A stretch of 43,827 bases of DNA, taken from assembly GCA_001577055.1 (NCBI GenBank), contig LSCG01000004.1, forward strand, positions 1 to 43,827. The letters run 5' to 3'. Positions within the stretch are counted from its first letter, which is position 1. Each line of letters starts with the position of its first letter. Positions 2,380-43,827 of this stretch are shown piece after piece. A model generated the notes under the pieces. It made no database searches, was not told where the DNA came from, and saw only the letters and a list, made by a program, of their open reading frames with translations. Made by a program: the position numbers and the translations under genes. The stretch comes from Fidelibacterota bacterium TCS56. Lineage in GTDB: Bacteria; Fidelibacterota; Marinisomatia; Marinisomatales; TCS56.

Positions 2380-2601
2380 ATGATCATCAAGATTGAGTAT
2401 TGTAACGAGTGAAATTATTTACCTAGAGCGGCCAGTTTGGCCAGCGATATTTTAAGTAGATATGGTACGGCGGTGAAGGAAATGACCCTGATTCCATCCG
2501 GTGGTGGAGTATTTGAAATTACCAAAAACGACCAATTGATTTTTTCCAAACGGCAAAATGGACGCTTCCCGGAAAAGGATGAGGTCTTCGACCAATTATA
2601 A
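2380..2601 (+). CDS. SelW/Rdx-family selenoprotein (UGA at 2410-2412 read as Sec; MIIKIEYCNEUNYLPRAASLASDILSRYGTAVKEMTLIPSGGGVFEITKNDQLIFSKRQNGRFPEKDEVFDQL)
   Basis: Hand translation through an in-frame TGA gives a full Rdx-fold pattern: YCxxU-NYxPRAxxL, GGGVFEI, LIFSKRxxGRFP. SD-like 'ggaaaagaa' upstream. Stop TAA at 2599-2601. Confidence 0.86.
2428..2445 (+). promoter_or_regulatory. Candidate bacterial SECIS hairpin downstream of the Sec UGA
   Basis: gc-ggcc-agttt-ggcc-a-gc: stem GGCC/GGCC extended by GC/GC with one bulged A; 5-nt apical loop AGUUU with G at loop position 2; loop about 22 nt 3' of the UGA. Confidence 0.7.
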
Positions 2602-3381: not shown

Positions 3382-3756
3382 ATGCCGGTCAGTAAAACCA
3401 CTAAAAAGACCGCTGATAAAAAAGCACCGGAGAAGGATAATCAAATCAGCAATAAGCTGGCGAAGGTGTTGGACAATATCGGTTCCCAGTATGGTGAATC
3501 CCTGCAGAATGAGCTTATGAATCGTCTGGAGCGCACCATCAGCGAATTCAACGATGAAGTCAACGAGATGATCGAAGAGTTACAGCGCCGCTCTCTGGAG
3601 CGCAAGGAGCAGCTCAGCACCTTGTGGGAAAAACGCAATGAGGAGGAGCCGGAGGAAGTCAAACCGGAGGCCAAAGAAACGCCGGCGGAAACTGATGTTG
3701 AAGAAATGAGCGATTGGGAAAAACGATTGGAAATGCTGGACGCGAAAAACCGTTAG
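3382..3756 (+). CDS. Hypothetical coiled-coil protein with C-terminal DWEKRLE motif (paralogue of 27999-28322)
   Basis: SD aggagg upstream of ATG; YGESLQNELMNRLERTISEFNDEV...SDWEKRLEML shared with the second locus. Confidence 0.75.
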   Translation: MPVSKTTKKTADKKAPEKDNQISNKLAKVLDNIGSQYGESLQNELMNRLERTISEFNDEVNEMIEELQRRSLERKEQLSTLWEKRNEEEPEEVKPEAKETPAETDVEEMSDWEKRLEMLDAKNR

Positions 3757-22027: not shown

Positions 22028-24514
22028 ATGATTTCTAATCGAATATATACGTACTATAGGACATATCCGGCGGTATTCCTGGCAGGCTGTCTGATTATCG
22101 GAATTCTTATCGGTCGAAATATTAATTCAATTATACCGGCATTTATGCTGATGTTAATCTGCGGACTGTTGTTGATTGTCGCAGGTCGCCCCGCATTGAC
22201 CTGGTGGCTGGTCCTGGTGATTGGCTGCGGTTGGTTAGGCAGCGGGTTAGACATGATCGAGAGGAGGGCAAAAAGTAAGGCGATTCACCATTTCCAGCGT
22301 AACCAGGTTCGATATCGCGGGGTGGTAAACCATGTTAGTTCAAGTAGTGACCGGCAGCGGATAGAGATGATTAATTTGTCACTCGTGGCGAACGGGCAGC
22401 GATATACCGGTGCTGCTAAATTTCTGGTTTACCTCGAGGAAAACTTACCGGTGGCGATCGGAGATACCGTCAGCGGCTCTGGTCGGTTTTATGAATTAGC
22501 CGGGAAGCGTAATCCCGGTGACTTTGATTTCAGAAGCTACTACCAGCGGCAAAATATCTTCGGGCGGATCTATCAGGGGAATAAAACAAATCCAGTGATT
22601 TATCCGGACAGTAGTGTTTCGGCGCGGCGAACCTTGGATAATATCCGGCAGGCGATTCGTCTGATGATTGATCGTCAGGCAGGTGGCCAGGCCGGCGGAT
22701 TGGTCAACGCCCTGATTCTGGGAGACAAATCAGGCATCGATCCGGATACAAGGGACGCTTTCATTATCTCCGGTGTTGTGCACGTACTGGCGGTGTCAGG
22801 CTTGCATGTGGGGTATGTTTTATTGATTTTTACTGCCATCGGGGGAGACAAATCAGGCATCGATCCGGATACGCGGGACGCCTTTATTGTCTCCGGTGTT
22901 GTACATGTGCTGGCGGTGTCAGGATTGCATGTCGGATACGTATTACTGATATTTACCGCCCTCGGCCGCATACTACGTCTTCCCTGGGGCTGGGATAAGC
23001 TGATGGTAATATTAGCCTTGATGGCCTTTGCCACCCTCACCGGCGGCAAACCCAGTGTGGTTCGCGCAACTCTGATGGCAGCGGTCTATGTTCTAGCCCC
23101 GCTGGTCAACCGCAATTCCAATTTGGCTAATATTATCGCGGTCTCCGCTCTGGTTTTGTTGTTGATTAAACCGGATTATATCGTTGATCCCGGGTTTCTG
23201 CTAAGCTTCACTGCCGTTATCTCGATTGTCATCTTCTATAACCTGTTCAATAATCTATTGCCGCTCAATTGGCGCGTGAATGAAATTAAGAACCCTGGAC
23301 TTAAAACGCTTTGGGGATTGACACTGGTTTCATTAAGCGCCCAGTTAGGCACGCTTCCATTGACAATTATGTATTTTCAAAGGATTCCGGTGATTGCCTT
23401 ACTGGCCAACCTGATGGTGGTGCCGCTGGTGGGAGTGCTGGTAGCCTGTGGTTTCCTGTTATTGCTGGTCGGGTGGTTCCCATTGATCGGGTTTATCGTC
23501 GGCAGTGCGGCTAAACTGGTGGCAGAGACCATAATTATCCTGACCAGCGGACTGGCACGGATACCCAACGCCTCACTTAATTTCACGCAACCGGACTGGC
23601 TTGATCTCACCGTATATCTGGCACTCGTCTCGATTCTGTTCCTGATCAAATATCAAAAATTCAGCAAAGTGCTCATCATTAGCCTGGTAACCGCAAATTT
23701 AGTTGTCTGGCAATGGGCCGTTGAGCGCGATACCATGGATCTGGTTTTTATGGATGTGGGTCAGGGAGATGCCTGTTTAATTGTGACTCCCGATCATCAG
23801 GCTGTGCTGATAGATGCAGGAGAGAAAAACTATAGGGTTGATATGGGATCCAGGGTGGTTTTACCGGTATTGCGGCAGTTATCGGTGGAAAGAATCAAAT
23901 ACCTGGTGATGACCCATCCCCACAGTGATCATATCGGCGGTGTGACGTCGGTATTAAATGAGGTCTCGGTGGATACCATCTGGGATACAACGATAGATCA
24001 TCATTCGCAAATGTACGATGATATCAAAACGCAACTGCAGGTGAACGAAACTGCTTTAATCCATCCATTTGCCGGTGATACTCGCTGGTTGTTTCCAGCC
24101 CTGCATTTAGCCGTGCTGCTGCCAGACAGCGCGTATTTCAATCATTTGAAAAGTATCAATAATCGCAGCATCATTATTAAACTTATTTACGGAACTTGCA
24201 GTTTCCTGTTAATGGCCGATCTGGAACAGGAGGGTGAGGAGATTCTGTGCAGCCTGGGCGGGGGACTTAAAGCGGATATATTGAAAGCCGGTCATCACGG
24301 ATCAATCACCAGCACCCGGCCACGGTTTTTAGATCTGGTCGATCCTGAAATTGCTGTTATCTCTGTCGGAACGGGGAATAAGTTTCAACATCCATCGGCA
24401 ACCGTTATCAGCAGATTAACTGCGGCCGGTGTTCAACTTCACCGTACTGACCGGCAGCAGGCTTTGTGGCTCAGATCGGATGGCAGAAAAATATGGAAAA
24501 TGAACTGGAAATAA
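22028..24514 (+). CDS. comEC: ComEC/Rec2 DNA-internalisation protein with internal 41-aa tandem duplication
   Basis: Competence domain HVLAVSGLHVG (twice) plus C-terminal metallo-beta-lactamase-like DVGQGDACLIVTPD...THPHSDHIGG...LKAGHHGS. Confidence 0.94.
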   Translation: MISNRIYTYYRTYPAVFLAGCLIIGILIGRNINSIIPAFMLMLICGLLLIVAGRPALTWWLVLVIGCGWLGSGLDMIERRAKSKAIHHFQRNQVRYRGVVNHVSSSSDRQRIEMINLSLVANGQRYTGAAKFLVYLEENLPVAIGDTVSGSGRFYELAGKRNPGDFDFRSYYQRQNIFGRIYQGNKTNPVIYPDSSVSARRTLDNIRQAIRLMIDRQAGGQAGGLVNALILGDKSGIDPDTRDAFIISGVVHVLAVSGLHVGYVLLIFTAIGGDKSGIDPDTRDAFIVSGVVHVLAVSGLHVGYVLLIFTALGRILRLPWGWDKLMVILALMAFATLTGGKPSVVRATLMAAVYVLAPLVNRNSNLANIIAVSALVLLLIKPDYIVDPGFLLSFTAVISIVIFYNLFNNLLPLNWRVNEIKNPGLKTLWGLTLVSLSAQLGTLPLTIMYFQRIPVIALLANLMVVPLVGVLVACGFLLLLVGWFPLIGFIVGSAAKLVAETIIILTSGLARIPNASLNFTQPDWLDLTVYLALVSILFLIKYQKFSKVLIISLVTANLVVWQWAVERDTMDLVFMDVGQGDACLIVTPDHQAVLIDAGEKNYRVDMGSRVVLPVLRQLSVERIKYLVMTHPHSDHIGGVTSVLNEVSVDTIWDTTIDHHSQMYDDIKTQLQVNETALIHPFAGDTRWLFPALHLAVLLPDSAYFNHLKSINNRSIIIKLIYGTCSFLLMADLEQEGEEILCSLGGGLKADILKAGHHGSITSTRPRFLDLVDPEIAVISVGTGNKFQHPSATVISRLTAAGVQLHRTDRQQALWLRSDGRKIWKMNWK
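22721..22966 (+). repeat. In-frame direct tandem repeat, two 123-nt copies (22721-22843 and 22844-22966) within comEC
   Basis: Hand alignment: 18 mismatches in 123 nt; first 29 nt identical; 16 of 18 differing codons synonymous. Confidence 0.97.
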
Positions 24515-25437
24515 TTGCGGGCGTGGATGAAGCCGGACGGGGTCCGCTGGCCGGGCCGGTGACGGCTGCGGCGGTGATCCTGCCAGAAGAATACGATTTG
24601 CCTGGACTTAACGATTCCAAAAAATTAACCACAAGGCGCCGCAATATTCTCTACGATCAAATCAAAAACTGCGCCATTGGTGTCGCTGTCGGCTGGGTCG
24701 AACCGGGGGAAATTGATCAAATAAATATTCTGAATGCCACCTTTAAGGCCATGAAGATCGCCTTGGGAAATTTACCGGTGACTCCAGATCGCGCCTTGAT
24801 TGATGGCGTCCCACTACCCACCCAGTTTATTCCCAATGAAGGCATCGTTAAAGGCGACGAGCAGATTGATTGCATCAAAGCCGCCTCGATTGTGGCCAAG
24901 GTGGAGCGTGATCGATACATGCAGCAGATGGAAGTTGTTTTCTCCGGGTATGACTTCGCTTCCAACAAAGGATATGGAACCGCGCGCCACCTGGAAGCAT
25001 TAGCAGAAAATATGGCCTGCCCAATTCATCGTCAGAGTTTTAATCCGGTTGCCAAGTACTATCCTACCGTAAATAGTCTCAGAAAATCCAATCGTCTGGG
25101 GTGGTGGGGTGAAAGGCTGGCCTGTCTTCACATCAATCGCCGGGGTGGCAAAATCCTGCAGACAAATTGTAATTGTCCGCCTTTTGGTGAGATTGATATC
25201 GTAGCTCAATGGGAGAATGAACGGGTCTTCACCGAGGTAAAAACCATAGCCAAATCTCAAATGGGTACTCCGGAGGAGAAAATCCAGAGAAGTAAGTTGG
25301 AGAAACTGCAACGTGCGATTGATAGGTATTGCCAGGAGAATGATTATCAGGGCGATATACGCCTGGATGCCTGCATTGTTAGAATCGACCGTGATGCGGC
25401 TCATCTTAAGTATTACCCGGGACTGTGGCTGGATTAG
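24493..25437 (+). CDS. rnhB: Ribonuclease HII fused to YraN/UPF0102 nuclease-like domain
   Basis: N-term IIAGVDEAGRGPLAGPVTAAAVIL ... KAASIVAKVERD; C-term WWGERLACLHINRRGGKILQTNCNCPPFGEIDIVAQWENERVFTEVKT (YraN). ATG at 24493 overlaps the comEC 3' end. Confidence 0.93.
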   Translation: MENELEIIAGVDEAGRGPLAGPVTAAAVILPEEYDLPGLNDSKKLTTRRRNILYDQIKNCAIGVAVGWVEPGEIDQINILNATFKAMKIALGNLPVTPDRALIDGVPLPTQFIPNEGIVKGDEQIDCIKAASIVAKVERDRYMQQMEVVFSGYDFASNKGYGTARHLEALAENMACPIHRQSFNPVAKYYPTVNSLRKSNRLGWWGERLACLHINRRGGKILQTNCNCPPFGEIDIVAQWENERVFTEVKTIAKSQMGTPEEKIQRSKLEKLQRAIDRYCQENDYQGDIRLDACIVRIDRDAAHLKYYPGLWLD

Positions 25438-28936: not shown

Positions 28937-29020
28937 TGCCGAGGGCCGGGATCGAACCGGCACTCCACGAATGGAACTGGTTTTTGAGACCAGCGCGTCT
29001 ACCAATTCCGCCACCCCGGC
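28937..29020 (-). tRNA. tRNA-Leu (anticodon CAA)
   Basis: Reverse complement GCCGGGGTGGCGGAATTGGTAGACGCGCTGGTCTCAAAAACCAG...GGTTCGATCCCGGCCCTCGGCA; long variable arm; CCA not encoded. Confidence 0.94.
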
Positions 29021-34651: not shown

Positions 34652-37183
34652 ATGGCCAAACGACCAATGCGAATTTTCCAGATAGCGAAGGAATTAAATA
34701 TCTCGCATCAGGAAATTATGACCTTCCTGAAAAATGATGGGATGGAGATATCCAGCCACATGTCGCCGGTGGATGATGAGGCATATCAGAAAATATTAGC
34801 CGAATTTGCCAAAGACAAAGAGGTGGTGGATCGCTATCGCAAGGACCAGGTGCGACGTGAAATTCATGAATCACGCCTGAAAGAAGAACAGCGCTCCGGG
34901 ATGAAGATCCTGTCGCTTGAAGAACAGCGCGCATTGGAAGAAGAAGAAAAGGTCAAGGCGCAGAAGGAAGCGGAAGCGGCACGCAAACGGGCTGAGGAAG
35001 AAGAAAAAGCGCGACTGGCAGAGGAAAAGCGCCAGCAGGAGGAAGAGCGAAAAGCCAAAGAGGCAGCCGAAGAAGCGGCCAAGCAAGCGGCGAAAGCAAA
35101 AGAAATTGGCAAAAAGCCCGGGAAGAAACCAATTGAAACCAAGAAAGCCGATAAATCCAAGGATACCACACCCAAGCCTGGTAAGAAACGCAAGCTGCGA
35201 AAGATCGACCTGTCAGAAATCGAATCGCAGATCGGCGTCAGTGGAGGCAAAGGCAAGGATAAGAAGGGTAAGGGCAAAAATAAATCCAAAACGGTTAATG
35301 CAAATGTAAAAGATGCCGTTCGACGTACACTGGCGGGAATCGACAGCAAATCCAAGAAGAAATCCTATTCTAAATCGCGCGGCGGCAAGCGTGGTGACGC
35401 CGAAGTGAGCGAAATCGATCAGATTCTGCAGATACCGGAATTCTCCAATGTGGAAGAATTATCAAAGATTTTTGAAGTACCACCCAGTGATATTATCCAG
35501 AAGTGTTTCGCATTGGGGGTGCTGGCTACGATCAATCAGCGATTGGATTGGGATACAATTGAGTTGCTGGCCAGTGATTACGGCTTTAAAGCCGAGCAAT
35601 TGACCGAGATCGGAGAGGATTTATTCTCGCTGGATACGACTGAGGAAGATTTTGAGAAAGCCCAATCGCGCTCACCGGTTGTGACGGTAATGGGGCATGT
35701 TGATCATGGAAAAACTTCGATCCTGGACTACATTCGCAAGACCAATGTGGTGGCGGGAGAATCGGGTGGAATTACCCAACACATCGGTGCCTATCAGGTA
35801 GAAACCGACGAGGGAAAAACGATCACCTTCCTGGATACGCCCGGTCACGAGGCCTTCACCGCCATGCGAGCCCGAGGCGCTCAGGTTACTGATATTGTGG
35901 TACTGGTGGTGGCGGCCAATGATGCGGTCATGCCGCAAACGGTTGAAGCCATCAATCATGCCCGGGCCGCCAATGTCCCGATTATTATTGCCATCAATAA
36001 GATTGATCTGGCCGGAGCCGATATTGATAAAGTCAAGCGTGAGCTGTCGGAAAAAGAAGTACTGGTGGAGGACTGGGGCGGAAAAGTCCAGGCTATACCA
36101 GTTTCGGCCAAGACCGGTGAAGGTCTGGAAGATTTACTTACAGCGATTGTGATGGAATCGGAACTGCTGGAACTGACAGCCAATTATGATACGCTGGCAC
36201 GGGGTACGATCGTGGAAGCCAGGCTGGATAAAGGACACGGACCCATTGCCACGCTGCTGATTCAAAAAGGTACTTTGCATGTAGGCGATCCCTTTATCTG
36301 CAATAATTATCCCGGCAAAGTACGCGCCATTATGGATGAGCGGGGCAAGCGCATTAAGGAAGCTGTTCCCTCGGATGCCGTCCAAATTCTGGGCTTCGAT
36401 CAGGTGCCCCAGGCGGCGGACATTTTTGCCACTGTAGAAAATGAACGTGACCTGAAACGGGTTGCCGCCGATCGTCAGCGGGTAAAACGTGAAATAGACC
36501 AGAAGAAGATTGCCACCCAGTCACTGGATGCCATCTCCGCCAAAATCAAAGAAGGCAGCATGAAGAACCTGCCATTGATTATCAAAGGTGACGTTGACGG
36601 ATCGGTAGAAGTGTTGGCCGAAACGCTGGAGAAATTGAATACGGAAGAAGTGGGGGTCCAGATAATCCATAAGGCTGTCGGCATGGTGATGGAGTCAGAT
36701 GTATTCCTGGCGGTAACCTCCGGTGCAGTCATCATTGGCTTTCAGGTTCAGGTGCATTCCAATGCGACATTATTGGCCAAGCAAGAAGGTATTGAAATTC
36801 GGGCCTATAGCATTATTTACAATGTTGTAGAGGATATACGTCTGGCACTTGAAGGTATGCTTGAGCCTGATTCAGTGGAAGAGGTTATTGGACGTGCCGC
36901 AGTTCAAGCAGTGTTTAAGATACCCAATCAAGGTTATATCGCCGGCTGCAAAGTAAATGAAGGATTGATTAAACGCAGCGCCAAAGCCCGCTTGATTCGT
37001 GATGGAGAGGTTATCAGCACCGGAACTATTTCTTCACTGAAAAGATTTAAGGACGATGTGAAAGAAATCAAAGAAGGCATGGAGTGCGGTATTGGGATTG
37101 ATTCGGTCTCAAAATACAAAGAGGGTGATGAAATCGAATCATTTGTGATCAAGAAAATAAAGCGAAAACTTGCAGCGAATTGA
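34652..37183 (+). CDS. infB: Translation initiation factor IF-2
   Basis: VTVMGHVDHGKTSILDYIRKTNV, FLDTPGHEAFTAMRARGAQ, charged N-terminal extension. Confidence 0.98.
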   Translation: MAKRPMRIFQIAKELNISHQEIMTFLKNDGMEISSHMSPVDDEAYQKILAEFAKDKEVVDRYRKDQVRREIHESRLKEEQRSGMKILSLEEQRALEEEEKVKAQKEAEAARKRAEEEEKARLAEEKRQQEEERKAKEAAEEAAKQAAKAKEIGKKPGKKPIETKKADKSKDTTPKPGKKRKLRKIDLSEIESQIGVSGGKGKDKKGKGKNKSKTVNANVKDAVRRTLAGIDSKSKKKSYSKSRGGKRGDAEVSEIDQILQIPEFSNVEELSKIFEVPPSDIIQKCFALGVLATINQRLDWDTIELLASDYGFKAEQLTEIGEDLFSLDTTEEDFEKAQSRSPVVTVMGHVDHGKTSILDYIRKTNVVAGESGGITQHIGAYQVETDEGKTITFLDTPGHEAFTAMRARGAQVTDIVVLVVAANDAVMPQTVEAINHARAANVPIIIAINKIDLAGADIDKVKRELSEKEVLVEDWGGKVQAIPVSAKTGEGLEDLLTAIVMESELLELTANYDTLARGTIVEARLDKGHGPIATLLIQKGTLHVGDPFICNNYPGKVRAIMDERGKRIKEAVPSDAVQILGFDQVPQAADIFATVENERDLKRVAADRQRVKREIDQKKIATQSLDAISAKIKEGSMKNLPLIIKGDVDGSVEVLAETLEKLNTEEVGVQIIHKAVGMVMESDVFLAVTSGAVIIGFQVQVHSNATLLAKQEGIEIRAYSIIYNVVEDIRLALEGMLEPDSVEEVIGRAAVQAVFKIPNQGYIAGCKVNEGLIKRSAKARLIRDGEVISTGTISSLKRFKDDVKEIKEGMECGIGIDSVSKYKEGDEIESFVIKKIKRKLAAN

Positions 37184-43206: not shown

Positions 43207-43281
43207 CGGGGCATGGCGCAGCCCGGTTAGCGCGCATGACTGGGGGTCATGAGGTCGGGAGTTCAAATCTCCCTGCCCCGA
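43207..43281 (+). tRNA. tRNA-Pro (anticodon GGG)
   Basis: CGGGGCATGGCGCAGCCCGGTTAGCGCGCATGACTGGGGGTCATGAGGTCGGGAGTTCAAATCTCCCTGCCCCGA; loop CUGGGGG; CCA not encoded. Confidence 0.94.
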
Positions 43282-43285
43282 CAAT

Positions 43286-43317
43286 AAAGCCTGGCCGTTT
43301 GGCCGGGCTTTTTTTTT
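43286..43317 (+). terminator. Intrinsic terminator after tRNA-Pro
   Basis: AAGCCTGGCC-GTTT-GGCCGGGCTT followed by a T-run; repeated exactly in the second unit at 43539-43570. Confidence 0.9.
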
Positions 43318-43380
43318 ATTGAGGATAGAGGTCACCTGCACCGCTTACCAGCGGTCTTCGGTGGGCAGGCACGGGGCAAA

Positions 43381-43419
43381 GAGCTTAGAGCTGAGAGCAA
43401 AGAGCAAAGAGCAAAGAGC
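43381..43419. repeat. Short heptamer-type tandem repeat (AGAGCAA)n
   Basis: gagcttagagctgagagcaaagagcaaagagcaaagagc...; second array at 43634-43679 has a different 3' end. Confidence 0.85.
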
Positions 43420-43478
43420 AAAGAAGAGCAGGGGGTGTCGGTGGGATGAGAAGTTTACAGTTAATCGGTCGGGAGTTC

Positions 43479-43517
43479 CCTGCCCGCCAAAGTACGTCGC
43501 AGACGGGCGTCGGCGGG
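43479..43517. repeat. 39-nt palindromic REP-like insert inside a tRNA T-loop-derived sequence
   Basis: CCTGCCCGCCAAAGTACGTCGCAGACGGGCGTCGGCGGG between GGTCGGGAGTTC and AAATCTCCCTGCCCCGACA; outer stem CCCGCC/GGCGGG, inner CGTC-GCA-GACG. Confidence 0.9.
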
Positions 43518-43672
43518 AAATCTCCCTGCCCCGACAATAAAGCCTGGCCGTTTGGCCGGGCTTTTTTTTTATTGAGGATAGAGGTCACCTGCACCGCTTA
43601 CCAGCGGTCTTCGGTGGGCAGGCACGGGGCAAAGAGCTTAGAGCTGAGAGCAAAGAGCAAAGAGCAAAGAGC
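43518..43672 (+). repeat. Repeat unit copy 2, identical to 43265-43419; a third copy starts at 43806 and is cut by the window end
   Basis: AAATCTCCCTGCCCCGACAATAAAGCC... at 43265, 43518 and 43806. Confidence 0.95.
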
Positions 43673-43736
43673 TTAGAGCGCAGAGGTGCCGGGGAGATGA
43701 GGTGATGAGGAGAAAAAACTTGTTTGTCGGGAGTTC

Positions 43737-43805
43737 CCTGTCCGCCGTAGCTTTAGCGCAGGCGGGCCTGCCCGCCAAAGTACGTCGCAGACGGGCGTCG
43801 GCGGG
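43737..43805. repeat. 69-nt compound REP-like insert (30 nt + the same 39 nt) at the same T-loop position
   Basis: CCTGTCCGCCGTAGCTTTAGCGCAGGCGGG + CCTGCCCGCCAAAGTACGTCGCAGACGGGCGTCGGCGGG between GTCGGGAGTTC and AAATCTCCC. Confidence 0.9.
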
Positions 43806-43827
43806 AAATCTCCCTGCCCCGACAATA

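Follow-up and report, generated by a model that had tools for sequence, protein, structure and literature searches.

Does the UGA codon that interrupts a short reading frame at positions 2380–2601 end translation, or is it decoded as selenocysteine (Sec) within a small redox protein? The frame lies on the + strand of a 43 827-nt stretch of DNA, all of which was analysed and which we call the window. It is absent from the window's standard list of ORFs of at least 100 aa; ordinary gene finders miss it because one 'stop' codon is, by our prediction, read as Sec. We consider it almost certain that 2380–2601 is functional and encodes a short selenoprotein of the SelW-like type, whose UGA is decoded as Sec by means of an RNA hairpin. 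The gene and its surroundings are laid out as follows.

36–2330, + strand: upstream gene with a FecR domain (PF04773, 41.5 bits) and a large outer-membrane-type C-terminal region; it adjoins selW in relatives as well.

2370–2374, + strand: probable Shine-Dalgarno sequence of selW, AAGGA, recognized by inspection and by the purine-rich stretches of relatives.

2380–2601, + strand: selW-like gene (Rdx family, CxxU) for a selenoprotein of 73 residues with stop codon TAA, assigned by family profiles, AlphaFold2 (AF2) modelling and Foldseek.

2410–2412, + strand: in-frame UGA, predicted to be read as Sec (residue 11 of C8-N-E-U11) from its conservation and the Sec machinery of the genome.

2428–2445, + strand: predicted bacterial SECIS hairpin, based on folding, covariation and synonymous-site controls, and within the constraints of PMC13188914.

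2579–3352, + strand: downstream gene for an exported or membrane protein to which Pfam assigns no function; likely start ATG 2579.

Read from ATG 2380 through UGA 2410–2412 (translated as U) to TAA 2599–2601, the selW frame yields MIIKIEYCNEUNYLPRAASLASDILSRYGTAVKEMTLIPSGGGVFEITKNDQLIFSKRQNGRFPEKDEVFDQL. A first-pass annotation of this DNA had proposed a hidden SelW/Rdx-like gene with an in-frame UGA; its translation was exact, and the product exceeded the cut-offs of the Pfam family PF10262 (Rdx; 82.7 bits, cut-off 22.6, E 2e-23), the NCBIfam equivalog NF041051 (SelT/W/H; 98.6 bits, cut-off 88) and TIGR02174 (SelT/W/H; 67.9 bits, cut-off 34.2). A sequence search likewise matched it to seven SelW/MIEN1-type PDB chains. 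With 29 natural relatives as input, AF2 returned a model with a mean pLDDT of 97.4 across all 73 residues and the order strand-helix-strand-strand-strand-helix. Since the first strand of this model comprises residues 2–8, the first strand of the SelW domain is supplied by the ten residues that precede the UGA. Foldseek aligned the model with SelW-related crystal structures at TM 0.85–0.93 (2fa8, E 6e-9), and thus with the thioredoxin-like fold of the SelW-like/Rdx family. The CxxU motif follows the first strand as C8-N-E-U11, and both C8 and residue 11 are invariant among relatives. The suggestion that CNEU may be unusual did not hold, as loci L021, L023, L038 and L119 share these four residues and the second x varies; CNEU is an ordinary CxxU variant. 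Ahead of the selW start, most relatives carry a purine-rich AGG/GGA stretch.

Compared with known systems, the product is close to the bacterial SelW-like selenoproteins (PMC1088965, PMC2398784), with which it shares a short single thioredoxin-like domain, CxxU, a UGA-encoded Sec with the SECIS immediately 3′, hosts that are mostly marine and few or no Cys forms among relatives that use Sec; we see no difference in kind. In a 2026 review, the SelW-like family is listed as PF10262 with CxxU and as a high-confidence prediction (PMC13188914). The members in Candidatus Neomarinimicrobiota (Marinimicrobia, SAR406), to which the named records of the near relatives belong, have traits of their own: the x-x is mostly N-x, and the gene has a conserved place beside the FecR/OMP gene. 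SelW-related Cys proteins (2fa8, 2obk, 2ojl, 3dex, 2p0g, 2oka) have the same fold at 34–41% identity, but 2fa8 and 3dex, which were aligned residue by residue, have Cys where the selW product would have Sec, and the solved SelW-related chains are 103–108 residues long as opposed to 73 here. Mammalian SELENOW (2npb) and MIEN1/C17orf37 (2ljk) are distant members of the same superfamily and fold (20–36% identity). The eukaryotic SECIS is positioned in the 3′ UTR.

The existence of Cys-containing SelW homologues elsewhere, e.g. with CTQC in 2fa8, together with the draft state of the assembly, would fit a UGA that arose by sequencing error or by a nonsense mutation in a Cys gene undergoing decay. 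We followed the codon through relatives. A selW relative was present in 43 of the 61 genomes of an order sample and in 143 of the 245 genomes of a phylum sample, and the named-collection record L048 has the same selW sequence, over the compared region, as L028 of the same order. Every match from the two samples that clearly spans the UGA site contains exactly one TGA, and none of these relatives has a Cys codon there; the Cys homologues that, by the first-pass annotation, would have pointed to an error or a pseudogene did not appear among them. The few stop-free matches are of two sorts: some start after the site, for instance as contig-end fragments; the others are marginal (E > 1e-4), lie inside long ORFs and are probably other proteins. 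Few Cys homologues of SelW-like proteins have also been reported in Sec-using organisms (PMC1794560). Outside the phylum, TGA occupies the same site in alpha- and deltaproteobacterial loci, in a planctomycete bin and in SAR324. Downstream of the UGA, dN is about 0.2–0.3 and dS is > 1.6 or saturated, and this part of selW is under strong purifying selection; upstream, dN is 0.14–0.45 with dS mostly saturated. An artefact or a decaying gene is hard to reconcile with such selection and with a UGA at the same place in well over 100 Neomarinimicrobiota genomes and likewise in the alpha- and deltaproteobacterial loci; on the strength of the phylum-wide conservation we rejected this explanation, to which we attach next to no probability.

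Does the organism have the means to insert Sec? The prediction that selA, selB, selC and selD should be present was borne out for all of them in the source genome, G000, a 1.94-Mb draft in 161 contigs that is 88% complete. Its tRNA-Sec scored 69.2 bits (cut-off 47) and has the anticodon TCA; selA (498 bits) and selB (344 bits) are adjacent on contig C36, and the encoded SelB contains a winged-helix domain of the SECIS-binding type, SelB-wing_3; selD scored 394 bits. Because the assembly is fragmented, this full machinery lies on contigs other than that of selW and its assignment relies on correct binning. SelD with Sec is a known selenoprotein, and the selD gene of G000 (contig C51, 18710–19639; L015:1501–2430) itself has one in-frame UGA, which falls within the active-site motif GSGUACK and makes selD a second trap for standard annotation in this genome beside selW.

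A UGA in frame within a conserved protein might also be expected of a variant code, in which one of the usual amino acids (Trp, Gly or Cys) would be assigned to UGA. In the window, however, UGA is a normal stop rather than a reassigned codon, because 10 of the 32 main ORFs end in TGA. With tRNA-Sec, SelA, SelB and SelD present in the genome, and a conserved SECIS hairpin right after the UGA, we rejected a variant code as barely conceivable.

When frames with one or two UGA codons and UGA outside the main ORFs were inspected by eye, no other UGA-containing gene was seen in the window. A selB-like match at 35681–36364 was rejected, being infB/IF-2, and a tRNA-Sec-like match at 28938–29020 proved to be tRNA-Leu. 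Elsewhere in the window, a 323-residue ORF at 24466–25437 (+) combines RNase HII (PF01351) with UPF0102/YraN (PF02021) in an apparent rnhB-yraN fusion, and near-identical direct repeats occupy 43254–43827 (160 nt at 43265 and 43518, 61 nt at 43479 and 43767), starting within the 3′ end of tRNA-Pro (43207–43282) and reaching the window end.

SelW and tRNA-Sec tend to occur together. Counting tRNA-Sec at ≥ 57 bits, we found both in 35 of the 61 genomes of the order sample, neither in 12, SelW only in eight and the tRNA only in six (Fisher p 5e-4, uncorrected for relatedness). The streamlined genus g17 (0.8–1.0 Mb) lacks SelW, and tRNA-Sec above the cut-off was absent from the nine genomes examined. 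Eight of the 43 SelW genomes are without a clear tRNA-Sec, which counts against the selenoprotein reading; missing contigs may be the reason. Four of these are < 85% complete, but the other four, G003, G020, G039 and G043, in which a UGA-containing selW is present, are 92–94% complete.

The hairpin (GC-GGCC-AGUUU-GGCC-A-GC) has a GGCC/GGCC stem, in which 2430–2433 pair with 2439–2442, and a stem extension of C2429–G2444 and G2428–C2445 across the bulged A2443. Its loop, AGUUU (2434–2438), carries a G at 2435, and A2434 and U2438 are able to pair. Between the UGA and the loop there are 21 nt, and 22 bases separate the UGA from G2435. The bacterial SECIS model asks for 16–37 nt from UGA to loop, an upper stem of 4–16 bp and an MFE of at most −7.5 (PMC13188914); the window hairpin lies within these limits, having a loop distance of 21 nt, a continuous stem of at least 4 bp (5 bp with the A–U pair) and an MFE of −9.6. 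The loop pattern NG[U/G]NU was present in 32 of 32 Neomarinimicrobiota rows. Folded alone, the hairpin (MFE −9.6 kcal/mol) is not striking in a single sequence, because its z-score against dinucleotide shuffles is only −1.5; single-sequence folding is thus suggestive but not decisive.

As the hairpin is also coding sequence, two controls were run in which the protein was held fixed. When the synonymous codons of the window hairpin were redrawn, 0.4% of the redrawn sequences folded equally well, and for the Neomarinimicrobiota set the mean MFE was −7.8 kcal/mol in the natural sequences versus −4.3 ± 0.3 kcal/mol in the redrawn ones, which is far outside the null. Covariation of the six pairs named above reached 0.555 in 29 diverse sequences, as compared with 0.144 ± 0.027 after shuffling and ≤ 0.198 in slid controls, and RNAalifold independently picked the four inner stem pairs. 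The third codon positions of Ala17 and Ala21, at which any base leaves the protein unchanged, paired in standard fashion in all 40 relatives (CG 11, GC 10, AU 9, GU 5, UA 4 and UG 1). Because six pair types occur, repeated compensatory change is required; pairing kept by such change, the mark of a bacterial SECIS, is therefore found here. In shuffles that ignore the relatedness of the sequences, 40 of 40 was reached in none of 100 000 (maximum 30), and the runner-up among 73 fourfold-site pairs was paired in 79%. Judged from the alignment, the Ala wobble pairing is evidence for an RNA structure that is independent of the protein. The SECIS-like hairpin that had been claimed just 3′ of the UGA is hence conserved in relatives far beyond chance. 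All checks from the first-pass annotation that were run gave the outcome it had predicted.

We infer that Sec is actually incorporated in this organism, by the following steps. tRNA-Sec would be charged by SelA, with selenophosphate supplied by SelD; at a ribosome that has arrived at UGA 2410, SelB would bind the hairpin at 2428–2445, and Sec would be inserted in place of termination. The predicted product is a 73-residue thioredoxin-like protein in which a C-x-x-U redox pair closes the first strand, and it would most likely serve as a small thiol/selenol oxidoreductase in the cytosol, with glutathione or the thiols of proteins as substrates.

The surroundings of selW bear on whether the UGA might do more than this. 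The gene order FecR/OMP gene, selW, exported/membrane protein and a small coiled-coil-like protein (at 3382 in the window) is conserved in most examined families of the order, contrary to the earlier suggestion that the placement may be unusual. The downstream ORF is open to ATG 2558, and its likely start, ATG 2579, overlaps the selW end in the +1 frame. A start codon of the downstream gene lies within the selW end at 26 of 27 distinct loci, several of which also have a later alternative start. In family f7 (L092–L099, L101 and L102), the downstream gene directly follows the FecR/OMP gene and selW, where found, is on other contigs, which may mean that selW was gained, lost or transposed here; the context of selW is thus conserved, though not obligatory. 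No Pfam family matched the downstream protein of the window above the cut-off, and 25 relatives gave weak, scattered matches only. A structure search with its AF2 model (pLDDT 88) reached no match at E 0.001 and retrieved only a weak Sm/Hfq-like module; besides such a small module, the model suggests two long C-terminal helices.

Sec insertion at bacterial UGA codons is generally incomplete, and with the downstream start inside the selW end, readthrough could influence the downstream gene. Both points count for dual decoding, in which Sec would be inserted when selenium is in sufficient supply, while at lower supply translation would stop or another residue would be used, the UGA being partly a regulatory stop. 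Family f7, with selW elsewhere, argues against an obligatory linkage to the downstream gene, and we regard dual decoding as unlikely. More doubtful still is that translation of the exported protein is coupled to Sec insertion, with the UGA as a gate that senses selenium and controls a protein of the cell envelope; in most Neomarinimicrobiota of the order, the start inside the last selW codons lies about 170 nt past the UGA. Were this true, family f7, in which selW does not occupy this site, would lack the gate.

As a functional SelW-like selenoprotein gene, selW is an ordinary further member of a well-known family, the commonest selenoprotein of ocean microbes, and its recognition corrects a gene overlooked by standard annotation. 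In a 2016 survey, three single-cell genomes of SAR406 appear solely under 'orphan SelD' (PMC5029168), and our search of the open-access literature found no description of selenoproteins in Neomarinimicrobiota. From genome data alone, the synonymous wobble pairing in all 40 relatives demonstrates selection on a SECIS with unusual clarity. With selW relatives in 143 of 245 genomes, Sec use would be a widespread trait of the Neomarinimicrobiota.
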